In this document: positions 7,858 to 63,121 of the stretch, piece by piece
Numbering within the stretch: the stretch's first letter is position 1
Layout of the letters: each line of letters begins with the position of its first letter
Assembly (NCBI RefSeq): GCF_015500055.1
Contig: NZ_CP045492.1
Location: forward strand, 2,056,501 to 2,120,500
Length of the DNA: 64,000 nucleotides
Direction: 5' to 3'
Origin: Mesorhizobium sp. NBSH29
Lineage (GTDB): Bacteria; Pseudomonadota; Alphaproteobacteria; Rhizobiales; Rhizobiaceae
Translations under genes and position numbers: made by a program
Notes under the pieces: model-generated
Database searches by the model: none
What the model was told of the DNA's origin: nothing
The model's input: only the letters and a program-made list of their open reading frames with translations

Positions 7858-8639
7858 AGCCGCTGGAACCCATCCTCACCGCCCGCGGGCTGGTAAAACG
7901 CTATGGCCGCGTGACGGCGCTCGACCACGCCGACTTCGACCTCTATCCGGGCGAGATACTTGCGGTCATCGGCGATAATGGCGCCGGCAAATCGACCCTC
8001 ATCAAGGCGATCTCCGGCGCAGTCCATCCCGACGAAGGCGAAATCCGCCTGGAGGGCAAAGCGGTGAATTTCAGGTCGCCGATGGAAGCCCGCGATGCCG
8101 GCATCGAAACCGTCTACCAGAACCTTGCTCTGTCGCCGGCTCTGTCGATTGCCGACAACATGTTTCTCGGCCGCGAATTGCGCCGTCCCGGCGTCATGGG
8201 GCAGTGGCTGCGTATGCTCGACAGGCCGGAGATGGAACGGCAGGCACGCGCAAAACTGACCGAACTCGGCCTCATGACAATTCAAAACATTGGCCAGGCC
8301 GTTGAAACCCTATCCGGTGGCCAGCGCCAGGGCGTGGCGGTGGCGCGCGCAGCCGCGTTCGGCTCCAAAGTCATTATCATGGATGAGCCGACGGCGGCCC
8401 TTGGCGTCAAGGAATCCCGCCGCGTGCTGGAATTGATCCTCGACGTGAAAAAGCGCGGCCTGCCGATTGTGCTGATCTCCCACAACATGCCGCACGTGTT
8501 CGAGGTTGCTGACCGCATTCATATCCACCGGCTTGGCCGGCGGCTGGCGGTGATCGATCCGAAGCAGCACTCGATGTCGGATGCCGTGGCTTACATGACC
8601 GGCGCCAAAGAGCCACCGGTGGAGGCGGTTGCAGCGTAA
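7854..8639 (+). CDS. frcA: Sugar ABC transporter ATP-binding protein
   Basis: A 261-residue single-domain ABC ATPase with Walker A GDNGAGKST, signature LSGGQRQGVAVARA, Walker B VIIMDEPTAAL and a switch histidine in LISHNMPHVFEV. Most sugar importers of this class use a two-domain ATPase; the one-domain form matches FrcA-type systems. Its ATG overlaps the frcC stop (ATGA), indicating translational coupling. Confidence 0.92.
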   Translation: MKPLEPILTARGLVKRYGRVTALDHADFDLYPGEILAVIGDNGAGKSTLIKAISGAVHPDEGEIRLEGKAVNFRSPMEARDAGIETVYQNLALSPALSIADNMFLGRELRRPGVMGQWLRMLDRPEMERQARAKLTELGLMTIQNIGQAVETLSGGQRQGVAVARAAAFGSKVIIMDEPTAALGVKESRRVLELILDVKKRGLPIVLISHNMPHVFEVADRIHIHRLGRRLAVIDPKQHSMSDAVAYMTGAKEPPVEAVAA

Positions 8640-17259: not shown

Positions 17260-17316
17260 GCGGGGTGCTCCATTTAAAATCGAGCATGGTGAGCGTCGAG
17301 TGGAGTGCGTGCCGAC

Positions 17317-17482: not shown

Positions 17483-18601
17483 TCAATAGGCGTCAGCAGC
17501 TGCCTGTTGAAAGTTTGGATCGTTGTGCAGGTAGGTTCGCTCATACTCATCGACCGTCAACCCAAGAGACGCAGCTGCCTCGCCTGCAGGCACTCCCGCT
17601 TGCGCCAACCATGTCCCACGAGTGTGACGCAATATGTGGGGCGTGACATCACCCGACAGCCCGGCCGCAGCGACGGCGCTGCGGAACGCTTTGTTCAATT
17701 TTGTGATCGGCTGGCCGTGGTAGTGCACAATATGGCGGATGCCGTTGGTGTAGCGATCCCATCCATCAATCCGGCGCCAACGTCGTAAATGGCCGAGCAG
17801 CTTCCGGGCAATCTTGACCGGCGGCTTCCGCTTGTTGTGAGCCACACGTTCGCCATCGGCGCGCCGAAAGATCACCCCGCTGTCGAGGTCTGCCCACCCA
17901 CCTGTGGTGGTGCGTATCCACTGAAGGTCCAAAATAGCTCCTGGGCGGGTGCCGGTGTAGAGACCGATCAAGATCAGCCGGACCAAGTGCGCCCGCTTCG
18001 GGTCTTTCTGTTTGTGCCACGATGGCCGCCCATCGGTCATTACCTTGACCGAACCACGCGCTGCGCGCAAAAGCGCTGCAGCTTCCGTCCGCGTGAGGAA
18101 CCTATCCCTCGGCAGTCCCTTCGGCGGAAGAGTGACTCGCGGAACGGAGTCGAGCTCGTAGTTCTCATGGTAGTAGTGCAGGGCAGCGCTCAGGTAAACG
18201 AGGTCTCGCCTGGCGCCGGCATCGGTGCCGCGCTGCCGGGCAAACTTTCGGCATAGCGGGCCTTTGATGTCTTTGACCGACCGATCGCCAAAGAATTCAT
18301 TCAACCGGATGACTGTTTGTTTAACCCTCTTCGGGTCTGCTGATTGATCAGCCTTTTCCTCGAGATAGACGCTCAAGACGTCAGCGACGAAGACCTCAGC
18401 TGCAAGACCGCCCCGTTGGGGCTCGTGCTTTTCGGCGATATATTCAGCGAGTTTTTGTCCGGCCTCTGCAGCTTGATCCGCAAAGCATCCTGTGCGGACA
18501 TGCTTTGTTCCGTCCTTGATGACCCACCGCGGGCGGACGTTGCCCCGACTGTCGGTTTCGGTTCGAAGCCAGAGGCGGGGGGGCTTTTTTGAACGCGGCA
18601 T
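17483..18601 (-). CDS. int: Phage tyrosine-type integrase
   Basis: A 372-residue tyrosine recombinase. The catalytic arginine lies in LYTGTRPGAIL (R219), the H-x-x-R box in PHILRHTRGTW (H322, R325), and the nucleophile is most likely Y357 in YERTYLHND. The N-terminal half holds an arm-binding/SAM-like domain. It sits about 120 bases from the tRNA-Pro fragment and points toward it, the standard layout for integration into that tRNA. Its N-terminal 229 bases overlap the excisionase-like gene in another frame. Confidence 0.94.
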   Translation of the reverse strand: MPRSKKPPRLWLRTETDSRGNVRPRWVIKDGTKHVRTGCFADQAAEAGQKLAEYIAEKHEPQRGGLAAEVFVADVLSVYLEEKADQSADPKRVKQTVIRLNEFFGDRSVKDIKGPLCRKFARQRGTDAGARRDLVYLSAALHYYHENYELDSVPRVTLPPKGLPRDRFLTRTEAAALLRAARGSVKVMTDGRPSWHKQKDPKRAHLVRLILIGLYTGTRPGAILDLQWIRTTTGGWADLDSGVIFRRADGERVAHNKRKPPVKIARKLLGHLRRWRRIDGWDRYTNGIRHIVHYHGQPITKLNKAFRSAVAAAGLSGDVTPHILRHTRGTWLAQAGVPAGEAAASLGLTVDEYERTYLHNDPNFQQAAADAY

Positions 18602-19662: not shown

Positions 19663-21352
19663 TCTTGCCTCCTGAAAACAAAAAATCAGCTGCCTTCACA
19701 AGGCTGCCCGGCAGCGTTTGGATAAACCCGAGCCGGGAAACTTTTGCGAGGTAGACGCCGAGCGTGCTTGCGCTTCGCGAAAGACCCATAAGATCGGCCA
19801 GATCACCACGGCTGATCGGCTCCGGGTGAACACCGATCACCAAGTCGAACACACGGGCTGGCTGAGGCTCAAGCAGCGCCCGCGCGCTGGTGTGCACGTC
19901 CAATGAGGCGGGGATAACGGACTGGGCAACGCCGGCGTCAGTGAGGCGAATGTGGCCGGGTGTGGACACTTCGAGTAAGCCGCGCTCGACTAATTTGGAA
20001 ACGTAGACGCCAAATGTCGATGCTGTTGGGCTTAGGCCAGCCGTGATGGCCGCTCGGTTCCGCGCAACCTCATCAAATCCAATCGAACGCCACCATGCGA
20101 CAGAGTCCAGCGCCTTTTGTAGGGACGGAGGCAAGTCGGCTGCAGGAACGGTGCGAGGAAAATTTGCAACAGGTTCGAGCCCTGCCACGACCACTGGTTT
20201 CTTTTCTGCTGAAAATGGAGCGGGAGTATTCGGTGCACGGATAGTTATAGGAACAGCGATATCGGATGGCTTCCCCCCGCCATTGGAACGGATATCCTCG
20301 GCTACGGCGCTGACGCGATCGGCAAACATCTTGGTGAGCGCGTTCCGGGCGGCAAAATACCCATCTTTGTATCCATTGTCATAGGCCCGCTTCTCGGCCG
20401 CATCGATGTCGACATTCGCTGTCGCACGCGCGCTCTTTGCTCCCTCATTTTTGGACGAAGAAATTATCATGGCCTCTCGCAAGGCTTTGACGTCGACGGC
20501 CGCCAATGCTGGTGCTGTTAGTACCTCACCGATCTGCGGGGTCCGGCTGCTGTCAAACGTGCGGATTGGGGGGAACATCACGCGCTCCAGGACGTCGTCA
20601 GCAGGTGACCAAACCCATCCCTCACCACGCTGCAGCGTGGGCAGGCTTGTCATCACAGCGCGGGCCTGGTCTGCGTCCGCGTTGCCCTTCACCCATTCGT
20701 TGACCGCTTTCCGGTCTTGGGGGCTGGTCAGCTTCAACGCGATAAGAGTTCCGATCTGCGAAAGGACGTTTTTGTGGATGACGGCCGGGCGTTGGGAGAT
20801 CATCAGGGGCCGAAACCCTTTGATGCGGCCTCGGCGAACAATTTTGTCAAACGCCCCGAAAAGCCTTTGTTCTCCATCAGCAAGGTTCTGAGCTGCAACC
20901 TCGTCGGCTTCGTCGACGATCAAGTGCAGCGCTGCCTTGTTCTTGGCATAGAGATTTTCCAGAAATGGCGTCAGGAAGCGGTTTTTCTCGCCACCTGTCA
21001 TTTCCGACGTGTCTATAATCGCTTGAACATCACGCTCGGCCAGCGCCAGCGCCAGCGCCTTACCGGCTTCGGCCGTAGGTTCTAGCCGAACGTCGGCATG
21101 ATACCCACCAAAAATCAGAACCGGAAAGCCCCCGCTCGGCGATCCATCAGCGCCAGCCCGCAGCCCGTACCAAGCGCCAGTCGGATCGATGATTATAACT
21201 CGCCGCCCGAGAGAGAGCAGATGCTCAACGGCCCCCTTTGCAGCGAAAGACTTGCCGGCACCGGTTGTCCCGACAATCGCAGCGGGCCGGTCCAGAAACA
21301 TCGCCAGGCGCGCAGCGTCCTGTAAAACAGTCATGGCTTGATTGTCGATCAC
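19655..21352 (-). CDS. HerA/FtsK-like ATP-binding protein (DUF87-type)
   Basis: 565 residues. The N-terminal ~300 form a P-loop ATPase: Walker A VGTTGAGKSF (near residue 27), RRVIIIDPTGAWYGL, Walker B LHLIVDEADEV and PLMISQRPAVIHK, matching HerA-type hexameric translocases. The C-terminal ~150 residues contain two similar winged-helix-like repeats (GLSPTASTFGVYVSKL and GLSRSASTLGVYLAKV). It may translocate or process DNA ends with the phage recombination proteins. It starts with GTG whose bases overlap the upstream stop (GTGA). Confidence 0.75.
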   Translation of the reverse strand: MIDNQAMTVLQDAARLAMFLDRPAAIVGTTGAGKSFAAKGAVEHLLSLGRRVIIIDPTGAWYGLRAGADGSPSGGFPVLIFGGYHADVRLEPTAEAGKALALALAERDVQAIIDTSEMTGGEKNRFLTPFLENLYAKNKAALHLIVDEADEVAAQNLADGEQRLFGAFDKIVRRGRIKGFRPLMISQRPAVIHKNVLSQIGTLIALKLTSPQDRKAVNEWVKGNADADQARAVMTSLPTLQRGEGWVWSPADDVLERVMFPPIRTFDSSRTPQIGEVLTAPALAAVDVKALREAMIISSSKNEGAKSARATANVDIDAAEKRAYDNGYKDGYFAARNALTKMFADRVSAVAEDIRSNGGGKPSDIAVPITIRAPNTPAPFSAEKKPVVVAGLEPVANFPRTVPAADLPPSLQKALDSVAWWRSIGFDEVARNRAAITAGLSPTASTFGVYVSKLVERGLLEVSTPGHIRLTDAGVAQSVIPASLDVHTSARALLEPQPARVFDLVIGVHPEPISRGDLADLMGLSRSASTLGVYLAKVSRLGFIQTLPGSLVKAADFLFSGGKIG

Positions 21353-29599: not shown

Positions 29600-29629
29600 A
29601 TACTTATAGGGGCACTTGTGCCGCGTCAA
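29600..29629 (-). promoter_or_regulatory. Candidate leftward early promoter
   Basis: Minus strand TTGACG (29629-29624) and TATAAG (29608-29603) are 15 bases apart; shifting to AAGTAT gives 18. An immunity-type palindrome fills the spacer, as expected of a repressed early promoter. Start of the first gene is about 25 bases further on. Confidence 0.6.
29610..29623. promoter_or_regulatory. Immunity operator, left copy 1
   Basis: GGGCA-CTTG-TGCCG, differing at one outer base from the perfect CGGCA-N4-TGCCG palindrome. It lies between the -35 and -10 elements of the leftward early promoter. Confidence 0.65.
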
Positions 29630-29638
29630 TGCGAAAGA

Positions 29639-29652
29639 CGGCAATTGTGCCG
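29639..29652. promoter_or_regulatory. Immunity operator, left copy 2
   Basis: Perfect arms CGGCA-ATTG-TGCCG, 15 bases upstream of copy 1 edge to edge. Paired operators fit cooperative repressor dimers. Confidence 0.65.
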
Positions 29653-29962: not shown

Positions 29963-30274
29963 TTATTCGGTGATCACGTCCCGGACAACCCAGAGACATC
30001 CTTCGAAATCATCGCCCTCCACGCAGACTGTTCCCATCCAATGGGTCTGGTTGATTTCAACTTTCTGGCCTTTGTGAAGGAATCTGCACTGACCTCCCTT
30101 TGCGAGGCGCAATGCATTCGCCATGAACATTTGCGACCCCTGGTCCTGCGCGATGCGAACCAAGTGGTATAAATCCTCTCGGTCACTGCAGGCGATCATC
30201 TCGTCTTGCACAGCAGCCGCGCTCGCAGCGGCAGCCACCAATGACAGCAGGATAGACGCGATGAGCGTTTTCAT
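29963..30274 (-). CDS. Secreted protein translationally coupled to the repressor
   Basis: 103 residues with a clear signal peptide (MKTLIASILLSLVAAAASAA, cleavage probably after ASA) and three later cysteines. Its ATG overlaps the repressor stop (ATGA) with GGTGGAGA as ribosome site, so it should be made whenever the repressor is made, that is, in the lysogen. A cell-envelope role such as superinfection exclusion or host-fitness 'moron' is plausible but not shown. No family recognised. Confidence 0.75.
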   Translation of the reverse strand: MKTLIASILLSLVAAAASAAAVQDEMIACSDREDLYHLVRIAQDQGSQMFMANALRLAKGGQCRFLHKGQKVEINQTHWMGTVCVEGDDFEGCLWVVRDVITE

Positions 30275-30960
30275 TCTCCACCTCTCAAAATGTAGTGTAC
30301 CGAAACGACTTTGGATTCATCGAACGATAGGCTTCTTGCCGGTTTGAGCTGCTCCAACACAAGTTCCTTCGCGTTCCGGCTGACAAAACGTTTCACGTAG
30401 GCCAGCGTTGGGCCACCAGCCTCTGGCCGGATTTGCGCGATCACATAGTCTCCCCGCTTCACCCTCTTTTGGGGGTTAACGAAGACCACCTCACCGTCCT
30501 CATACCGAGGGTCCATTGTCTCACCGCTCACGGTTACCGCGTAAGCGCCCAGGACCTCTTCGAGACTTGCCGGCGCCTCGATGTCGCCACAGCGATTGTC
30601 GTCTAGCATAAATTCCCCCTCAACTCCGCCGACTGCGCTGCTGTAAAGCGGAACAGTCACCCCCTCTAACGGATTACCGCCAGTAACATGACCGTTGGGA
30701 GCGTTACGATCAAATGCCTGAATGTCGATATGGTGAACGTTGCCAGGGTCATTGGGGGACGTGAGCCATGAGACTGGCCACTTCAAAAACGTGGCCAAGG
30801 CTTCCAAATTTTCGCCGCGGGGAAATTTCGAGCGTCCGCGCTTGATACCTCGAATCAAGTCCTTGTTGCGTCCGTTGGTTATGATCAGCGAGGCTTCGTG
30901 ATCTTTCATATTCGGGTACAGTTCGTGCACTCGTGCTCTGATGCGCTCATATGCAGTCAT
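30271..30960 (-). CDS. CI-like repressor with S24 peptidase domain
   Basis: 229 residues. An N-terminal helix-turn-helix domain (about residues 1-65, ending FLKWPVSWLTS) is followed by an S24/LexA-like domain (VPLYSSAVGG through ILRGGE). The usual G-D-S-M nucleophile motif reads G-E-T-M (T148), while the general-base lysine context LAYVKRF is kept. The gene diverges from a Cro-like gene across CGGCA-N4-TGCCG palindromes. It should maintain lysogeny; the Ser-to-Thr change raises doubt about RecA-stimulated self-cleavage. Confidence 0.88.
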   Translation of the reverse strand: MTAYERIRARVHELYPNMKDHEASLIITNGRNKDLIRGIKRGRSKFPRGENLEALATFLKWPVSWLTSPNDPGNVHHIDIQAFDRNAPNGHVTGGNPLEGVTVPLYSSAVGGVEGEFMLDDNRCGDIEAPASLEEVLGAYAVTVSGETMDPRYEDGEVVFVNPQKRVKRGDYVIAQIRPEAGGPTLAYVKRFVSRNAKELVLEQLKPARSLSFDESKVVSVHYILRGGE

Positions 30961-30996: not shown

Positions 30997-31010
30997 CGGC
31001 ATTATGGCCG
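30997..31010. promoter_or_regulatory. Immunity operator, right copy 1 (imperfect)
   Basis: CGGCA-TTAT-GGCCG; one mismatch between the arms. It is nearest the repressor gene and likely governs its own promoter. Confidence 0.55.
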
Positions 31011-31030
31011 GATTGATCAGGCACTGTAAG

Positions 31031-31044
31031 CGGCAATAATGCCG
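31031..31044. promoter_or_regulatory. Immunity operator, right copy 2
   Basis: Perfect arms CGGCA-ATAA-TGCCG directly abutting the TTGACT -35 box of the rightward promoter. Confidence 0.65.
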
Positions 31045-31073
31045 TTGACTAACCGGCACAAGTGCCGCATAAG
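31045..31073 (+). promoter_or_regulatory. Rightward early (cro) promoter
   Basis: TTGACT (31045-31050), 17-base spacer, CATAAG (31068-31073). The cro-like start codon follows at 31082, so the message would be nearly leaderless. An operator occupies the spacer. Confidence 0.65.
31054..31067. promoter_or_regulatory. Immunity operator, right copy 3
   Basis: Perfect arms CGGCA-CAAG-TGCCG inside the promoter spacer, so a bound repressor would exclude RNA polymerase. Confidence 0.7.
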
Positions 31074-31611: not shown

Positions 31612-32019
31612 ATGTCAAAAACTGAGCAGGCACGACGTTTAATGCATGAAATCGGAGATCTACTTGCTCCGGAAATGCCAGCGAAGGTTCGTTACCAAAA
31701 GGCCTTCCTGAAACTCGTACAACATTTGCCAGCCCTCACGCATCGCCGTGTGCGGTCGCTTCATAACGGGGAAGCACATCGCGTCGACCTCGAAGAAATC
31801 GACGCGATGACGAACTTATTGGAGATCGAGATGGCCGAGCGCGAACGTCTACAGTTTGTAGCGTACACCAACAAACTGGTCGCGCTCCACGCTGTAGGTG
31901 CAACCACGTTGACACGCCAGGAAGTTTCCACCCTCGCAAAGGTGGCCAGCCGCCCTGCCTATATCTCGAAGTCTGCAAACTCGAACCGTCAAGGTGATCT
32001 TGGTCTCCGGGCTGGATAG
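31612..32019 (+). CDS. Hypothetical phage protein
   Basis: 135 residues, helical and basic (AKVRYQKAFLKLVQHLPALT; EEIDAMTNLLEIEMAERERL). ATG 31612 has GGGAG upstream; the frame is open back to 31387 but that part does not look coding. The 220 bases before it therefore appear to be leader sequence. Function unknown. Confidence 0.6.
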   Translation: MSKTEQARRLMHEIGDLLAPEMPAKVRYQKAFLKLVQHLPALTHRRVRSLHNGEAHRVDLEEIDAMTNLLEIEMAERERLQFVAYTNKLVALHAVGATTLTRQEVSTLAKVASRPAYISKSANSNRQGDLGLRAG

Positions 32020-32077
32020 GCGCGCGTCCCAAGCCACCTTGTCGAAAATAATTCAACCCAATCGAAGGATTTCCAAA

Positions 32078-32518
32078 ATGACAAAAGTATTGGAGCAAGG
32101 TCGCAATAGAGCCAAGCCTGACGAAGCTGCGTCCTTCGTGGAGAAGTTCGAGCAGCTTGAAGCCGAGAAGCTCATCGAGAAGATGACCTCAATGGCGAGG
32201 ATCAAGAAGATCGTCGACCAGCAGAGCGAGCTGCTGGATGATGCGAAAGGGCAGGGTGTCCCGAAAAAGGTTATCCGCACAGTCGTCAAGGCACGCTCCT
32301 ACGAGGCGAAGTCTAAGGCCGCAATGGAGGAGCTCGAGGATGATGATGCAGCAGATGCTGTAGCCATCCGCAAGGCGCTTGGCGACTTTGCCGACCTGCC
32401 CCTCGGTGCGGCTGCAATAGAGCGCGACGATACAACGTCGGCTGTGGTCAAAGCGGTGAACGATTCCCTGTCTGACCAGGAACGAGAATCCGCACGCCAG
32501 GCGCCTCCGATCCACTGA
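32078..32518 (+). CDS. GapR-like (DUF2312) nucleoid protein
   Basis: 146 residues. The N-terminal ~75 follow the GapR pattern: FVEKFEQLEAEKLIEKM, then a helix ending DDAKGQGVPKKVIRTVVKAR, equivalent to GapR's 'EAKGNGFDTKALRxVxRxRK'. GapR binds overtwisted DNA ahead of forks in Alphaproteobacteria. The C-terminal ~70 residues are an acidic extension absent from chromosomal GapR. It may help phage replication or compete with host GapR (inference). Confidence 0.65.
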   Translation: MTKVLEQGRNRAKPDEAASFVEKFEQLEAEKLIEKMTSMARIKKIVDQQSELLDDAKGQGVPKKVIRTVVKARSYEAKSKAAMEELEDDDAADAVAIRKALGDFADLPLGAAAIERDDTTSAVVKAVNDSLSDQERESARQAPPIH

Positions 32519-32688: not shown

Positions 32689-33312
32689 ATGCGCAATTCA
32701 ACAGCGCCACGCATACTCGCGCTCGACGTCGCCACTCACGTCGGATGGTGTTACGGGCCAGCTGGCCTGCCCCCTACCTCCGGCAGCTTCCGATGCGCCA
32801 AGCCAGATTCATCGAGAGGGTCAATTTTCTCCGGCGCGGGCAGGTGGGCTACCGCATTTATCACCGCCAATCCGGTGGATATTCTCGTAATCGAGGCCCC
32901 GCTGCCGGGGAGTCATGTCCAGGGAAAGACCACGATCCAGACCGCGACCATCCTCATGGGTCTGCCGGCAGTGATCGAGTTCATGGCCTACCAACTCAAG
33001 GTATACGAACAGCACCGTGTTCTTTTGTCCTCCGTTCGCAAGCACTTTATCGGCAAGGGAGGACTTCAGGGTGACGTCGCTAAGCCTCTCGTTTGGAGGA
33101 AATGTCTCGCTCTCGGCTGGATCCAGCCCGATGATACCGATCTCTCCCACGATCGCTCGGATGCGATCGCCGTGTGGTCCTATGCTGAAGCAGAGTTTGC
33201 ACCCAAGCTAGCGCAGCCTGTCGACGATCTTTTCGTCAAGGCGGCTCAGCGCGCGCGTGTCGCTGCCGCGAAAGTTGAAAGCACTACCCCGCAGCTGATG
33301 GAGCGGTTTTGA
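32689..33312 (+). CDS. RuvC-like Holliday-junction nuclease
   Basis: 207 residues of the RNase H-like RuvC fold. ILALDVATHVGW supplies the first aspartate, DILVIEAPLP the glutamate, and DLSHDRSDAIAVWSYAE the last acidic residues. Phages use such enzymes to resolve branched DNA before packaging. Confidence 0.82.
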   Translation: MRNSTAPRILALDVATHVGWCYGPAGLPPTSGSFRCAKPDSSRGSIFSGAGRWATAFITANPVDILVIEAPLPGSHVQGKTTIQTATILMGLPAVIEFMAYQLKVYEQHRVLLSSVRKHFIGKGGLQGDVAKPLVWRKCLALGWIQPDDTDLSHDRSDAIAVWSYAEAEFAPKLAQPVDDLFVKAAQRARVAAAKVESTTPQLMERF

Positions 33313-33440
33313 TGCTCCGGTTCCGCAAAATTGTCTCACGTCCAAAACGCACTTTCGCAATCACCGACGTCATCGTGGGGTTTGCAGTGCGCGGTCCCGG
33401 AAGCGACTTCGCTGTAACTGTGAAATGGAGGCAGCCTTGA
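33312..33440 (+). CDS. Small hypothetical protein (42 aa)
   Basis: MLRFRKIVSRPKRTFAITDV... a basic 42-residue frame that starts on the last base of the RuvC-like stop (TGATG) and ends overlapping the TTG start of the next gene (TTGA). Tiling supports it; function unknown. Confidence 0.55.
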   Translation: MLRFRKIVSRPKRTFAITDVIVGFAVRGPGSDFAVTVKWRQP

Positions 33441-34153
33441 GCACCCAGGTTATCGCGTTCGCTCCTCTGAAGCATAGCCGCAGGAAAATCGAGATTGCAG
33501 CGGGCCTTGCCAATATGGCGCTGACCTACGTGTCGACGCTCAAACAATTTCTCCCTCTGCTTGAACGTGACCCCTTGTCGATCGGGGTCTGCTGGTCAAG
33601 CAATCGCCTTTCTGCCCTTGAGCAGTGCCACATCACTCGCGCCCGTCTGGACAATCTGTTGTTCATGCTTCTGCCGATTTCTGCCGGCCACAAGGCAGTC
33701 GTCGATTTGCTGACTGCGGGATCTGACGATGTTCAAACCGACGACACAGACCCTCGTGAGCTTGCGGCCCGACTGGCGGCATTAGCAGCCCGGCGTCGTG
33801 ATTATGTGTCCAGCAAGTTTAGTTTTTGCGGTTGCTCATTTGACGCGGTGGCGGGGACAGTTATGTCCCCATCGGCTTTCACCCGCCTGACAAAGTATGA
33901 ATCGAGCGTGTTGTCCTTGCTGATTGGCCATCGCGGTAACTTAGTGGCAAAGCGGGCAATCCTCGACGGGGTCTACCAGGGTCGCGACGAACCCGACATA
34001 AAAATCATCGACGTTTTCGTCTGCAAGCTCCGCAAAAAACTATTCGACGTAACCGGCGGACGTGACGTGGTCGAGACGGTTTGGGGTAGGGGCTACCGGT
34101 TTGTCCCAACCGGATTCGAACCAAAGTTTTCCCACATTAGAAAGGGCGATTGA
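33437..34153 (+). CDS. Stand-alone CtrA-like winged-helix DNA-binding protein
   Basis: 238 residues. The last ~90 are an OmpR/PhoB-type winged helix whose recognition region DEPDIKIIDVFVCKLRKKL and VETVWGRGYRFVP is strikingly like the DNA-binding domain of the cell-cycle regulator CtrA. The ~140-residue N-terminus lacks the aspartate-phosphorylation receiver fold. It may bind CtrA sites in host or phage DNA without phospho-control. TTG 33437 is preferred (GGAGG five bases upstream, TTGA overlap); ATG 33425 is possible. Confidence 0.72.
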   Translation: MSTQVIAFAPLKHSRRKIEIAAGLANMALTYVSTLKQFLPLLERDPLSIGVCWSSNRLSALEQCHITRARLDNLLFMLLPISAGHKAVVDLLTAGSDDVQTDDTDPRELAARLAALAARRRDYVSSKFSFCGCSFDAVAGTVMSPSAFTRLTKYESSVLSLLIGHRGNLVAKRAILDGVYQGRDEPDIKIIDVFVCKLRKKLFDVTGGRDVVETVWGRGYRFVPTGFEPKFSHIRKGD

Positions 34154-34729
34154 ATGACTCTGCGTCCTTCGTCCTTCCCACCAAGACCCAACAATCTCTA
34201 CGAGACAGAACCGTGGGCGACGGAAGCCCTTCTACGCCACGTTGATATCTCAGACAAAACCATTTGGGAGCCTGCTGCCGGGCGCCACAAGATGGCGAGG
34301 GTTCTTGCTCGGCGCGCCCTCCATGTCATCACCAGTGACATTGTCCACTACGAGGTCAGGCACGACCACATTTTTGATTTTCTACAGCAAGACGACCACG
34401 AAATGATGCTGCGCCCAGACGGCATAATCACCAACCCACCGTATGGACCTCAGAACCGGGACGCCGTTCGCTTTTGCGAACTGGCGCTGCAGCGGACCCA
34501 CGGTATTGTTGCGATGTTGATGACCGCAAAGTTCGACAGTGGGAGCACTCGATCTCACCTGTTGCGCGACAATCCGAGATTCAGAGCAAAAATAGTTTTG
34601 GTCGATCGCATCCAGTGGTTCCCCGGCTCATACGGCGGGACGGAGGACCACGCATGGTTCGTGTGGGGTCCTCAATCCCCTTTCCCGTCCCCTCCAATTC
34701 TCCGGTACGAAGGCAAGGCCACGGCATGA
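34154..34729 (+). CDS. Methyltransferase-like protein with NPPY motif
   Basis: 191 residues. TIWEPAAGRHKMARVLARRA is a class I SAM-binding start and ITNPPYGPQNRDAVRF carries the NPPY motif of amino-methyltransferases (DNA adenine, or RNA/protein glutamine type). The usual target-recognition domain is missing, so it is short. Substrate unknown. Confidence 0.75.
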   Translation: MTLRPSSFPPRPNNLYETEPWATEALLRHVDISDKTIWEPAAGRHKMARVLARRALHVITSDIVHYEVRHDHIFDFLQQDDHEMMLRPDGIITNPPYGPQNRDAVRFCELALQRTHGIVAMLMTAKFDSGSTRSHLLRDNPRFRAKIVLVDRIQWFPGSYGGTEDHAWFVWGPQSPFPSPPILRYEGKATA

Positions 34730-35199: not shown

Positions 35200-35489
35200 A
35201 CGGGGTGGATGCTCGAAGTCGAGAAATTTTGGGTGGCTATCACGGCGAGTTCCGAAAGGTCCACAAAGCCGCTTGGGAAGTCGTATGCCTCGGAGGTACG
35301 CCATGTGTTTTTGAAACCGCCCAGGAGGCGGAAGTAGCAGCATGGCGCGCACTGCGATCCCATCTTTGTAACGACATAGTCGGTTCCGGGGCCAAAGCCT
35401 CATCAGGCAAGAGTAAAGCCGAGGAACTGTTCGGCTCTATTTTCAAGCGCGGGAAGCGTATCCAGGTGGAGCGCAAAAAAGGTGCCTGA
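35196..35489 (+). CDS. Hypothetical phage protein
   Basis: 97 residues (FRKVHKAAWEVVCLGGTPCV, FETAQEAEVAAWRALRSHLC), basic C-terminus. It overlaps both neighbours and directly precedes the Toprim-helicase gene. Function unknown. Confidence 0.6.
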   Translation: MNGVDARSREILGGYHGEFRKVHKAAWEVVCLGGTPCVFETAQEAEVAAWRALRSHLCNDIVGSGAKASSGKSKAEELFGSIFKRGKRIQVERKKGA

Positions 35490-37704
35490 CGTTTCTGAAT
35501 TCACCGCCATCATGGCAGACGTGGCCAACGAGGTCATGACTCCAATTGCCGGTCCTTTCAATAAATCCATGTCGAACTCAAAAGAGCGTCGATGGGGTGA
35601 GAAAGGTGCATTCTCTGTCGACCTGCAAAAGGGCGTGTGGCGCGATCATTCGGACAATACAGGCGGTGGGGTTCTGGACCTCCTAGCCGTCTACGCTGGC
35701 CTTTCCAAGCCGGCCGCCCTGGCATGGCTGGCTGAGCGCGGTCATCTCAAAAGGAACACTGACAACCGTTCCTCGTCGGGATCCAATGATGGGCAGCAGA
35801 TCGACAAGTTCGCCGGGTTCATGGACGATCACCCTGTCGCGATTTTCAAATACTACGACGATAAGGGTGGGCTTGCCTACGAGGTCCTGAAATTTGCAAA
35901 GACAGCACCACGCCGATACATGCAGCGCCGGCCTCATCCTGCCGGCAAGGGGTGGATATGGGGTCTCCAAGAGGGGAAATATGGCCAAACCCGATCCGGT
36001 GACTGGTTTAAATTCAAGGACGACAAAAAGTACGAGGCAACCGAGGAGTTCGAGGATGCGCGCTGGTTCCTTTATCACCGCGCCGAAGTCGTAAAGGCCG
36101 TTTCCGAGGGGAGGCCTATTATCCTCGTCGAGGGGGAGAAGGACGTCGAGACGCTGCGGACGTGGGGCCTAACGGCCACCACGAACCAAGGTGGCGCGAA
36201 GAACTGGAAACCTGAGCTCGACGGCGACCTCAAAGGTGCTGACGTTGTCATCTGCTCCGACTTAGACAAAGCCGGGAATGCCCGCACACTGATGCGCGGC
36301 GCAGCATTGCGCTCTGTGGCCAAATCGGTGCGTGTTCTCGATATGGCGAACCACTGGAAGGACGCTCCCGATAAAGCGGACGTCACCGACTGGAAGGAAC
36401 AGGCTGGCGGCACAGGGAAAGTGTTTGAGGAATTTGTTGCCACCGCCCCGGCATGGAAACCAGAACGTCCTAAATCTCGGTTCGGTGCGATTCCTTGGTC
36501 TGACCGTCAACGCAAGCAGAAGCGATTGGAATTCCTTGTCGACGGCTGGCTGACGGAAACTGGCGTGACCTTCCTCGGTGGACCTTCAGGGTCTGGCAAG
36601 TCGTTCCTCGCCCTGCACATCGCCATGTGCGTCAGTCGTGGAGTCGACTTCTTCGATAGACCAGTGAAGCACCGCGGTGTCATCTATCAGGCCGGAGAAG
36701 GCGGCGTAGGCCTTCTCGACCGCATGGACGCCTTCGCCAAGCACTTCCAGGTTTCTGATGAAGAGGAAATTCCTTTTGAACTGTTGCCGGCGAAGATCGA
36801 CATTTTTTCTAAGGACAGTAGAGACACCGAGAACCTGATCCAAGAAATCAAAGCTCTTGCACTCGGGATGGCCGTCCCGGTCGGCCTGGTCGTAATTGAC
36901 ACGCTGTCAAAGGCGACAGTGGGCGCCGACGAGATCAACGGCAAGGATACAGCGGCAATCCTCGCAAATGTCGAGAGAATCCGCGACGAGTGCAACGTCA
37001 ATGTCATTGTGGTTCACCACATGAATGCTGACGGAAAGAAACTTAGAGGGCATACGTCGCTCCGCGATAACGCTGACACGGTGATCCTGATCACTAACGA
37101 CAAAGAAACCGGCATTCGAGACGCTATTCTTGACAAGCAGAAGGACGCCGAGGACGGGCTGCGGTTGAAGTTTTCTCTCGGCGCTGTGGCTGTCCGTGTC
37201 AACGAGGTTACTGGCTCAGACGTAACATCGTGCGTCGTATTGTCGGTGAGTGAAAAAGAACGTCTGAAAGCGGAGCAAGCCCGCATTGGATATGGTCCGA
37301 GTCAGACCGAACGGCGCATTCTCTTGAACTATTTCGATACGGTCGATCGGCATGGCCGGCTGGTCACAAGCGAAAAAGAGGGGCCTCGGGCTGCACTTGG
37401 GAAAGTGGTCGTCAACTACCTCGACTATCAGGCCGTCGCGCTCGAGAAACTTATCGAGGTCGAAGACAAAGCAAAAGCAGTCGACCAGATCAGAAAGGAA
37501 TTCTCTCGGGCAAAGGATGGTTTGGCCCGCTATGGAATCCTTGAAATGCATAAACCCTTCGTCTGGTGGACAGGCAAGCCCATCCGCGGTTTCCCACGGA
37601 CGTTCAAAAAACGTGACGACGAATTGGATGTTGGGCAAAACTCCATTAGCCCAGGTCTGCAAGAAATTATGACAAGCGGCTCAGACTACGAGATCTTGCT
37701 ATGA
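35482..37704 (+). CDS. Toprim/AAA (RepA-like) primase-helicase
   Basis: 740 residues. The N-terminal part has a Toprim-like core (PIILVEGEKDVETLRTWGL, then DVVICSDLDKAGNA). The middle is a RepA/AAA_25 ATPase: Walker A FLGGPSGSGKSFLALH, Walker B GLVVIDTLSKATVGAD, and VIVVHHMNADGKKLRGHTSL. The likely job is phage replication initiation and fork unwinding, perhaps with priming. GTG 35482 overlaps the upstream stop; ATG 35512 is an alternative start. The far C-terminus is of unknown type. Confidence 0.85.
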   Translation: MPDVSEFTAIMADVANEVMTPIAGPFNKSMSNSKERRWGEKGAFSVDLQKGVWRDHSDNTGGGVLDLLAVYAGLSKPAALAWLAERGHLKRNTDNRSSSGSNDGQQIDKFAGFMDDHPVAIFKYYDDKGGLAYEVLKFAKTAPRRYMQRRPHPAGKGWIWGLQEGKYGQTRSGDWFKFKDDKKYEATEEFEDARWFLYHRAEVVKAVSEGRPIILVEGEKDVETLRTWGLTATTNQGGAKNWKPELDGDLKGADVVICSDLDKAGNARTLMRGAALRSVAKSVRVLDMANHWKDAPDKADVTDWKEQAGGTGKVFEEFVATAPAWKPERPKSRFGAIPWSDRQRKQKRLEFLVDGWLTETGVTFLGGPSGSGKSFLALHIAMCVSRGVDFFDRPVKHRGVIYQAGEGGVGLLDRMDAFAKHFQVSDEEEIPFELLPAKIDIFSKDSRDTENLIQEIKALALGMAVPVGLVVIDTLSKATVGADEINGKDTAAILANVERIRDECNVNVIVVHHMNADGKKLRGHTSLRDNADTVILITNDKETGIRDAILDKQKDAEDGLRLKFSLGAVAVRVNEVTGSDVTSCVVLSVSEKERLKAEQARIGYGPSQTERRILLNYFDTVDRHGRLVTSEKEGPRAALGKVVVNYLDYQAVALEKLIEVEDKAKAVDQIRKEFSRAKDGLARYGILEMHKPFVWWTGKPIRGFPRTFKKRDDELDVGQNSISPGLQEIMTSGSDYEILL

Positions 37705-38045
37705 GTGCTTTCAGCGGATTTCGACGCCAAGTGCATGCGGACCGCACGATTTACATCGTCTATGTGCTATGGATGATCGGTCACTCGCATCGGACGATTG
37801 CGGCAGCACTAGGGATGAGGTCAAAGCAGGTCGCTGGCATCATCCACAATTCGAAAGTCTATCGCGGCCGAGCAGCAATGACAGACGATGAACGCCGGCA
37901 GCACCTTGAGGACCTCAGGGTAATTAGAGCAGGTGATGACGGCCAGACTATCGATAACGGGGCGCTCGACAGAATACCGTTCAAGGTACGGCCTCTCAAA
38001 GCACGTCAGGGTCGGGGACCACTGAAACGAAAGGTCGGATTGTGA
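37701..38045 (+). CDS. Small helix-turn-helix-like phage protein
   Basis: 114 residues. MIGHSHRTIAAALGMRSKQVAGII reads as a helix-turn-helix of the GcrA/resolvase type; the tail is basic (VRPLKARQGRGPLKRKVGL). It overlaps the helicase end (ATGA). It may be a sequence-specific regulator; target unknown. Confidence 0.6.
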   Translation: MSAFSGFRRQVHADRTIYIVYVLWMIGHSHRTIAAALGMRSKQVAGIIHNSKVYRGRAAMTDDERRQHLEDLRVIRAGDDGQTIDNGALDRIPFKVRPLKARQGRGPLKRKVGL

Positions 38046-60966: not shown

Positions 60967-61278
60967 GCGGGCAGGGCGCAGCGCAGGATTTAAGCGTTTC
61001 TGGGCCAAAATAGTTCGCAGTTTCAGTTTTATTCGACCAGATCGCTCTCGAATTGACCAAAACACACATGAAACGGGGCGAGATCGATGTGGGAGCGGGC
61101 GAATCACCGCGTGACTTCGCACCCATTTCCCCCTCCCCACGTCAAATCTGAGGGGCGATCCTCACTCTGAAAAAGAAATTTTGCTGTGGAAAATGGGATT
61201 TCCAAAAATAAACTTCGCCGGCACGCAAAAGCCACCCCGTCCAGGAGGCCTGCCCGATCGCCGTTTTTATCGATTTTT

Positions 61279-61311
61279 CGGACGAGGCTCGGACGAGGCT
61301 CGGACAAACAG
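61279..61311 (+). repeat. 11-bp direct repeats, set 1
   Basis: CGGACGAGGCT, CGGACGAGGCT, CGGACAAACAG in strict 11-base phase; a further CTCGGACAGAG follows at about 61319. Confidence 0.8.
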
Positions 61312-61447
61312 CCTCAAAACTCGGACAGAGCGATCATCGGATGCACTGCCAGATGGCCCCTTGGGCGCATAAAACCGAGTGTTTCCGGGCCTGCGGGGGC
61401 ATGCACCTATTCGAACTGAAAGCGCCGCCAAGCCTGCAGCAAAATCT

Positions 61448-61480
61448 CGGACGAAACTCGGACGAGGCTCGGACAAACCC
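61448..61480 (+). repeat. 11-bp direct repeats, set 2
   Basis: CGGACGAAACT, CGGACGAGGCT, CGGACAAACCC: the same three-unit order as set 1, 169 bases further on. The last unit again ends AAAC. Confidence 0.8.
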
Positions 61481-61907: not shown

Positions 61908-62591
61908 ATGCGCGTCGTTATCCGGAAGCAGAACATCAAATTAATTCTGTCGTTCCAGGAAAGAGCGAAGCTGCTTGGAAACAAGCATTGGCAAACCGAG
62001 GCTTTCCGAGGCGTGGTTGACGCTGGCAGAAAAACCAAGACCCAAGTCCAGCGATCCGTCCACAACCAGATGGCCATGAAGAAATATGGCTTCACCGCAC
62101 AGAACACGCGGGGCACACCCCGCCGCGCAGAGCTGGCGTTCGAAATCTACGCGCTCAAAGGCGGTCAGCGAGTTGAAGAGTACAAGGGTCTGAGAGCCCT
62201 CTCCCCTGGCGGATCAGCCGCTGGCAAGATGAACACTGGCCGTTCGAACAGCGACGCAGGGTTCGTTAAATCGAGCGTCTGGAACTCACCCAGAACCTTC
62301 AAGAGGTCGTTCGCCACCAATGGCGGCTACTTCGCGATGCTGCCAGGTGGGACGAGCACCAAGGCACCCAAGATGCTCTGGACGTTTGGCGCCAAGAAGA
62401 GCCAGCCTCGCGGGGCGGGCGGTCGGTTCGGGAAATCCTCACAGCGATACGGCAAGATCCGGCGCCTGTTTGGCCCCGCTCTCCGGAAAGAGTTGGTCAA
62501 GGACCAAGCGCTGTCCACTTTCTACCGCGTAGGGCCGAAGCTGCTCGAAGATAAGGTCATGAAGCGGATGGAAAAGCTGATAAAGTTCTGA
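61908..62591 (+). CDS. Putative phage structural protein, gpZ-like minor tail/completion type
   Basis: 227 residues, basic. The end GKIRRLFGPALRKELVKDQA, TFYRVGPKLLEDKVMKRMEK resembles the C-terminus of lambda gpZ-like minor tail proteins ('RLYGPSLP..'). The N-terminal part is a long helical region (RGVVDAGRKTKTQVQRSVHN). Finding it before the terminase genes is unusual. Overlaps the terminase small subunit gene start by one base. Confidence 0.5.
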   Translation: MRVVIRKQNIKLILSFQERAKLLGNKHWQTEAFRGVVDAGRKTKTQVQRSVHNQMAMKKYGFTAQNTRGTPRRAELAFEIYALKGGQRVEEYKGLRALSPGGSAAGKMNTGRSNSDAGFVKSSVWNSPRTFKRSFATNGGYFAMLPGGTSTKAPKMLWTFGAKKSQPRGAGGRFGKSSQRYGKIRRLFGPALRKELVKDQALSTFYRVGPKLLEDKVMKRMEKLIKF

Positions 62592-63121
62592 TGGCCAAAA
62601 AAACAAAAGCCGAGACAGCGCGCACCGGCAATATTGCGCCCGTTGTCAACCGCACAGAGATGGCGATCCACCTGGGGGTCACCATTCAGTGGATCGGAAA
62701 GCTTGCGGAAGAAGGCGTGCTTATTCGCGCCGATGGCCGGGGCAAGTTCCAATTCAGCGAGTCTGTCCAGTCGTTTATTCGGCACAAGACGGCGAGCATC
62801 GAGCGCCAAAGCCAATCGACTTCTGCCGATGCGCTGCGCGACCAGCGCGCCCACGAGATTTCGATCAAAATCGCAAGGCAAGAGCGCGACCTGATCCCAC
62901 TCGACGATGCAATGGCCGTCACTGAAAAGCTGGTTGGGATATTTCTCGAATCGATCTCCGGTTTGCCGGCGCGAATGACAAGGGTTCCACGTGAACGACA
63001 GCGCTTTGAAGCCATCTGCGACGAAGAAAGGCTCCGTCTTTCAGACCGCTTCGGAGAATTGGCGAAAACTGTTCGTACGGGCATCGACTCTTCAGAGACC
63101 CTCTCCGAGGACAACGCCTGA
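62591..63121 (+). CDS. terS: Terminase small subunit, Nu1-like
   Basis: 176 residues. VNRTEMAIHLGVTIQWIGKL, AEEGVLIRADGRGKFQFSES is the winged-helix DNA-binding start of Nu1-type small terminases, followed by a long helical part (QRAHEISIKIARQERDLIPL) for assembly with the large subunit. It would recognise the packaging site, perhaps the 11-bp repeats upstream. Confidence 0.85.
   Translation: MAKKTKAETARTGNIAPVVNRTEMAIHLGVTIQWIGKLAEEGVLIRADGRGKFQFSESVQSFIRHKTASIERQSQSTSADALRDQRAHEISIKIARQERDLIPLDDAMAVTEKLVGIFLESISGLPARMTRVPRERQRFEAICDEERLRLSDRFGELAKTVRTGIDSSETLSEDNA

Follow-up and report, generated by a model that had tools for sequence, protein, structure and literature searches.

In the 4.0 Mb genome of Mesorhizobium sp. 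NBSH29, a temperate prophage spanning 60 kb or more carries a gene for a CtrA-like regulator whose DNA-binding half is of CtrA type and whose N-terminal half is a receiver by fold and profile and a pseudo-receiver by residues. This suggests that the phage supplies a mimic of CtrA to which host signals no longer apply. CtrA is the cell-cycle master regulator of the bacterium and, in many Alphaproteobacteria, sets the timing of replication, of division and of the building of flagella and pili.

The window (the whole stretch of 64,000 nucleotides that was analysed) contains the start of the prophage, near the integrase gene, and the prophage extends beyond the window end. Genes for an integrase, a CI/S24 repressor, RecE/RecT-like proteins, a primase-helicase and a small terminase lie inside the window and bear out the phage origin that a sequence-only reading of this DNA had proposed; past the window end, open reading frames of the same locus (L047) resemble, by eye, large terminase, portal, protease-capsid and tail proteins, which brings the prophage to at least 60 kb. 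No near DNA match to window positions 20000–44999 was found in the phage collection. The genes and sites that make up the setting of the regulator are:

17483–18601, minus strand: prophage integrase (phrog_1, E 1.1e-32)
29610–29652, no strand: two CGGCAnnnnTGCCG-type palindromes (29610, with one mismatch, and 29639) ahead of the leftward recombination operon
30271–30960, minus strand: CI-like repressor with a Peptidase_S24 domain, divergent from the early operon
30997–31067, no strand: three more palindromes of the CGGCAnnnnTGCCG type, at 30997 (one mismatch), 31031 and 31054, which presumably serve the rightward operon as operators for the repressor
31994–32518, plus strand: GapR-like DNA-binding protein gene (PF10073, E 6.7e-7, above cut-off), preceding the CtrA-like gene
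32689–33312, plus strand: RuvC-like resolvase gene (phrog_159, E 3.2e-12), preceding the CtrA-like gene
33437–34153, plus strand: CtrA-like regulator gene, 238 aa from TTG 33437 (open reading frame with Shine-Dalgarno sequence; Trans_reg_C; best NCBIfam match a CtrA model)
34154–34729, plus strand: DNA methyltransferase-like gene (phrog_799, E 3e-45), directly downstream of the CtrA-like gene
35482–37704, plus strand: phage primase/helicase gene (AAA_25, E 5.2e-33; phrog_239, E 1.1e-30)
62591–63121, plus strand: terminase small subunit (phrog_57, E 1.8e-13)

The CI-like S24 repressor gene lies between the leftward operon, with the RecE/RecT-like genes, and the rightward operon, which runs from 31082 and in which the CtrA-like gene stands together with phage replication genes. 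Allowing at most one mismatch, the window has 22 palindromes of the CGGCAnnnnTGCCG type where 5.6 are expected, a count that no shuffle out of 100 attained, and five of these near-matches fall in the two regulatory gaps flanking the repressor gene. The layout of repressor, divergent operons and palindromes is lambda-like and, judging from position, the repressor probably binds the palindromes and keeps the rightward operon silent in the lysogen. An open reading frame at 37701–38045 looked GcrA-like by eye, an identity we rejected as it has no Pfam (E <= 0.1) or PHROG (E <= 0.01) family; a GcrA search of the whole host genome found one place, outside the prophage. Short tandem repeats with CTCGGACGAGG-like units occur at window positions 61278–61475.

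The proposed open reading frame of the regulator is present: its TTG start at 33437 has a GGAGG 5 nt upstream and falls at the place matching the starts of its relatives, while a longer alternative from ATG 33425 (242 aa) has no evident Shine-Dalgarno sequence. The parts of the gene, all on the plus strand, are:

33437–33805, plus strand: predicted pseudo-receiver domain, residues 1–123 (model, structural superposition, profile alignment to CtrA, residue table)
33590–33592, plus strand: codon 52 (Cys), at the column of the CtrA phospho-aspartate D51 (MAFFT alignment and table; hhalign)
33725–33793, plus strand: codons D97, D98, E108, R112 and R119, presumed dimer face (invariant in 14 of 14 sequences)
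33815–34108, plus strand: OmpR/PhoB-type winged helix of CtrA type (Trans_reg_C, model, tree, alignment)
34004–34051, plus strand: recognition helix, model residues 190–205, IIDVFVCKLRKKLFDV (helix in the model; identity counted over residues 186–203)

The DNA-binding half contains an OmpR-type winged helix, with a Trans_reg_C match (PF00486, E 6e-16) above cut-off. Its likeness to CtrA exceeds chance, the best NCBIfam match being the CtrA model NF045991 (E 2.5e-30). At 105.9 bits this match lies far below the curated cut-off of 350, although the name of the model indicates Rhodobacterales and such a threshold may be a demanding one outside that order. The CtrA-like recognition-helix stretches quoted in the sequence-only reading are real: compared with host CtrA (L002, G000:C1:56203-56640), the domain is identical at 40 of its 92 aligned positions, and residues 186–203 at 14 of 18. 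We placed these sequences in a DNA-binding-domain tree of 50 rows and 94 columns, with 18 open forks, comprising the window protein, 14 pseudo-receiver forms, 11 ordinary-receiver CtrAs, 18 short phage forms (14 of them taken from 73 IMG/VR loci) and six other OmpR/PhoB-type regulators of the host. The latter six split from all CtrA and phage rows at 100/99, so that the relatives are of CtrA type and a generic PhoB regulator, one of the outcomes that would have told against the sequence-only reading, is rejected; the window protein has both the recognition helix and the clustering of a CtrA orthologue. The 33 phage rows with a pseudo-receiver or short form split in turn from the 11 CtrA rows at 98/96, a grouping that may be due to long-branch attraction and hence is no proof of a single origin. 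Two relatives (L141 and L142) have a diverged recognition helix, so specificity need not be constant. On the host chromosome, the OmpR-type regulator L007 (G000:C1:110579-110986) has a receiver half that also looks degenerate by eye; we take it to resemble the rhizobial regulator Rem.

For the N-terminal half, structure prediction and alignment to CtrA supported one part of the sequence-only reading, a CtrA-type protein that has lost its phosphosites, and overturned another, namely that this half is not a receiver. In an AlphaFold model from a 14-row alignment (mean pLDDT 89; pTM 0.56, so that the mutual arrangement of the domains is not predicted), the elements of this half (E4-8 H12-24 E28-32 H35-44 E49-53 H57-70 E74-79 H81-94 E98-101 H106-123) follow the strand-helix order E-H-E-H-E-H-E-H-E-H. 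Receiver-only chains among the matches listed superpose over 113–122 residues at 1.9–2.5 A with Z 16–18; the KdpE D52A receiver, for example, superposes on residues 1–123 over 118 residues at 2.0 A (Z 18.1). A profile–profile comparison (hhalign) with seven CtrA sequences spans 221 columns from residue 1 with probability 100 and E 4e-43. Model, superposition and profile alignment together rule out a non-receiver, and Pfam Response_reg had no match in the window protein or in the four prophage relatives tried, which means that the domain escapes single-sequence reading.

The residues that make a receiver work are gone. Across a table of 14 sequences, the window protein and 13 IMG/VR relatives (L129 and L134, near-copies of L131, were left out of alignment A3), the D51 column is without Asp and the K101 column without Lys in every sequence, and a complete acidic pair is missing throughout, three rows retaining one acid. 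The window protein itself has Cys at the D51 column, no Lys and no acidic pair, and in this departs from a CtrA orthologue; a regulator of CtrA type that is unable to be phosphorylated at the usual site, as first proposed, is therefore what we find, since the receiver fold is present and its aspartate absent. Five positions, D97, D98, E108, R112 and R119, are invariant in all 14 sequences, and we take them to be the alpha4-beta5-alpha5 dimer-face residues of OmpR/PhoB proteins; nine ordinary-receiver CtrA rows from viral contigs have D-D-R-R in nine of nine and E in eight of nine. Identity to host CtrA is uneven along the protein, at 8/68 in residues 1–78 and 15/42 in residues 79–120 against 40/92 in the DNA-binding domain.

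Both domains are under purifying selection. Ten pairs of sequences were computed, of which seven are informative for the receiver; dN/dS is 0.08–0.25 for the pseudo-receiver in these seven (pS 0.43–0.64, some pairs having common members) and 0.04–0.27 for the DNA-binding domain in the nine pairs with a value. L131 paired with L129 and with L134 had too few receiver changes, and the near-saturated pair L133–L136 gave 0.44 for the pseudo-receiver and no value for the DNA-binding domain. The low ratios indicate that the pseudo-receiver is kept by selection, which bears on whether the gene might be ordinary cargo with no role in infection, be it an OmpR/PhoB regulator of generic kind or the remnant of a CtrA in decay. 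We regard this as very improbable: Pfam does find only the generic Trans_reg_C above cut-off, but selection on both domains, the 100/99 split from the six host OmpR-type regulators and a conserved neighbourhood all speak against it. All 17 relative loci that were examined have a GapR-like homologue upstream of the CtrA-like gene; with L043/L044 and L045/L141 being duplicates, 15 of these loci are distinct.

An IMG/VR scan with the five-row alignment A2 yielded 73 loci, all of which were classed: 15 have the pseudo-receiver, 15 an ordinary receiver, six a CxxC segment before the domain (three of these, L166–L168, being alike in length and score) and 37 no receiver, the last class including eight 3′ ends of ordinary ctrA, two contig-end cuts (L161 and L172) and one broken frame (L148). 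Among cellular genomes, the pseudo-receiver form occurs in eight of 394 genomes of the host family (six of 109 genera, one match each) and, in an order-wide draw, in two of 397, one being Mesorhizobium sp. NBSH29 and the other marginal (E 3e-13). Ordinary CtrA is a separate gene: at E <= 1e-20 there is a match in 285 of 297 family genomes, almost always to their own CtrA. The annotated phages contribute 51 records at E <= 0.01, none of them matching over 80% of the protein.

How might such a protein act? The reading we tentatively favour, and hold to have close to an even chance, is that the phage makes a CtrA-derived factor cut loose from the host phosphorelay, early in lytic growth and acting chiefly at host sites. 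CI would repress the rightward operon in the lysogen, so that the CtrA-like protein would be made early in the lytic cycle; needing no phosphorylation, it would use alpha4-beta5-alpha5 to form homodimers and possibly also heterodimers with host CtrA; and it would occupy CtrA sites, mainly those on the host chromosome, at any stage of the cell cycle, in what may amount to a hijack of the host cell cycle. A pseudo-receiver that is conserved and selected points more naturally to constitutive or heterodimeric action. Published work describes many pseudo-receivers as dimerising without phosphorylation and aspartate-less receivers as largely retaining the canonical dimer interface (PMC12632262, PMC4395418), and the kept dimer face would also allow a heterodimer with host CtrA, for which BldM–WhiI (PMC4125116) is a precedent among atypical regulators. 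The loop ahead of the recognition helix, GRDEP in the window protein against GMDEP in host CtrA, leans to agonist action, and its EP pair is kept in 11 of 14 relatives, where the loop is looser. Points against the favoured reading are the NCBIfam score far under its cut-off, the diverged recognition helix of L141 and L142, the pTM of the full model, the dN/dS of 0.44 in one near-saturated pair and the phage's lack of surplus canonical CtrA boxes.

This loop also bears on the opposite action, in which the protein would silence the CtrA programme, for example lifting the replication brake, by pairing with host CtrA or by occupying the phosphotransferase ChpT. We consider such an antagonist quite unlikely, as GRDEP is kept as if activation were kept (the loop of the relatives being looser) and as the first two thirds of the receiver, presumably the part facing ChpT, is its most diverged part (8/68 in residues 1–78). 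An antagonist would nevertheless fit the presumed dimer face, invariant and common to ordinary-receiver CtrA (D-D-R-R 9/9, E 8/9), and the existence of heterodimers such as BldM–WhiI (PMC4125116).

The protein might instead regulate the phage's own genes, as an early-to-late switch or a control of replication, through a site that has drifted from the CtrA box, with host promoters being incidental. Its gene adjoins replication genes, as this would have it, and CtrA regulation of phage promoters is known (PMC9437464). We nonetheless judge it unlikely, if not strongly so, because CtrA boxes are not enriched in the window, 15 of 16 viral loci have no match at eight of nine positions, no other repeat common to the phages was established and a recognition helix nearly the same as that of host CtrA argues against a new site. 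The search for TTAA-N7-TTAA sites in the phage, put forward as a check in the sequence-only reading, gave no support, with no exact site in the 64,000-nt window and, for TTAA-N7-TTAAC with one mismatch, two sites against 2.7 expected. The host genome has 30 exact TTAA-N7-TTAAC sites on both strands (15 for the reversed control), a density of about 0.35 sites per 47 kb, so that zero exact sites is uninformative either way. At seven of nine positions, window positions 17301–64000 contain 26 matches, fewer than the 40.8 +/- 6.3 of 30 Markov resamplings, though avoidance of TAA alone may account for the shortfall. When 16 viral loci were scanned at eight of nine positions, no box was found except in L143 (an ordinary receiver with D51N), which has two against 0.3 expected, at the same place on both strands; at seven of nine, L132 has 10 against 6.6 and L143 15 against 6.9, the other 14 loci being near or below expectation. 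There is thus no general excess of canonical CtrA boxes in the prophage and no support for self-regulation through them, and a search of the prophage for perfect 6-base direct repeats with a spacing of 10–12 gave no convincing site near the gene.

Loss of the phospho-aspartate extends to viral CtrAs that have an ordinary receiver, a convergence that counts in favour of a factor freed from the phosphorelay. Among 15 of these from viral contigs, position 51 is D in eight, E in four (L145, L150, L152 and L155), N in two (L143 and L153) and A in one (L157), so that D51 is absent in 7/15 against 1/80 genome loci, where it is D in 79 and E in one; the 80 are the best 80 of a longer list with no random draw, and because sequence patterns guided the choice of the sample, the counts are not population frequencies. 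Some of the viral-contig rows with D51 may be host DNA. The one exception among the genome loci (L058) is a Geminicoccaceae MAG contig encoding a CtrA with Glu at D51. Genes for a phage-type DNA polymerase or a thymidylate synthase are found in the neighbourhood of L150, L152, L155 and L157, while L143 has a methyltransferase and an exonuclease nearby; of the other neighbour proteins tried, a second one at L155 and the single one at L145 had no match. A 43-row tree (the host, 15 viral rows and 27 of the 80 genome loci), from which the D51 column was left out and in which several rows have long branches, requires five changes between D and non-D in all, four of them for the viral non-D group, of which the starred branches force only two. 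D51E is an experimentally used phosphomimetic form of CtrA (PMC10589892). We put forward, as a possibility somewhat short of even, that phages of Alphaproteobacteria have repeatedly captured or reshaped CtrA and broken the CckA–ChpT link in three ways (a point change that removes D51, often to the phosphomimetic Glu; a receiver turned pseudo-receiver with its dimer face retained; and CxxC or coiled-coil-like segments in place of the receiver), yielding an always-on CtrA that would set the host cell-cycle programme during infection. Such a natural series of D51E, pseudo-receiver and no receiver would show which parts of CtrA are needed for phosphorylation-free action on DNA.

The window protein resembles several known systems and differs from each in some respect. 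Host CtrA is alike in domain order, whole-length profile alignment, recognition helix and wing, with 38% identity over query residues 80–225; unlike it, the window protein is phage-borne, has no phospho-aspartate, lysine or complete acidic pair, and ends in KGD without the Ala-rich end that has a degron role in CtrA. Roseobacter phage RDJL Phi 1 encodes in gp37 (HM151342.1, ‘transcriptional regulator CtrA’) a CtrA-type winged helix that is 41% identical over the domain and 45.8% in the tblastn piece; this protein is annotated ctrA in the GenBank record, while a text count gave no ‘ctrA’ in the RDJL Phi 1 genome paper. The top BFVD match of the window protein is the RDJL Phi 2 relative of gp37. 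In contrast to the window protein, in which a receiver fold is present, gp37 is 151 aa long and Pfam finds only its DNA-binding domain, starting near residue 19.

Atypical OmpR/PhoB regulators with a pseudo-receiver, among which we would also count CosR, form a further point of comparison. The window protein shares with them the receiver fold (Z 16–18; pLDDT 89), the missing phosphotransfer residues (14 of 14 sequences without Asp and Lys) and the OmpR-type winged helix; HP1043, which is among the structural matches listed and whose PDB title says phosphorylation-independent, ChxR and RitR likewise combine a receiver fold lacking phosphorylation residues with an OmpR-type effector (PMC12632262, PMC4395418, PMC3960148). 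These are cellular genes of other lineages, whereas the window protein is CtrA-derived and phage-borne. Finally, host CtrA controls phage genes (Mascolo et al. 2022, PMC9437464; Jorvik, PMC10589892) and, as in those phages, the life cycle here would be tied to the CtrA system; those phages use host CtrA via sites in their own genomes, whereas this prophage brings a CtrA-like protein and has no site enrichment. Annotated phage ctrA, atypical OmpR/PhoB regulators and host CtrA control of phage genes are thus already known. A phage-encoded CtrA without phospho-control was not found in the literature on phages and CtrA (titles and abstract openings among the matches listed), and neither a CtrA-derived pseudo-receiver protein of phages nor a recurrent D51 loss among viral CtrAs appeared in those matches; both are apparently new. 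A phage that supplies its own phosphorylation-free CtrA, if this is true, would be the reverse of host CtrA controlling phage genes.

Two further kinds of locus came out of these searches. First, in short phage CtrA-type proteins, a CPxC-type or coiled-coil-like segment replaces, by eye, the receiver (L009, L040, L158, L165, L166, L175; L173, L176–L180, L195). Second, eight viral contigs (L159, L160, L162, L163, L164, L170, L171 and L174) contain only the 3′ end of ordinary ctrA (from ...LNHLYGGMDEP), around locus position 8001 and adjoining unrelated sequence, with, as judged by eye, a tyrosine-recombinase-like open reading frame beside it in L164 and a LigA-like one downstream in L159. The 3′ part of ctrA itself thus seems to be an integration site for different prophages.
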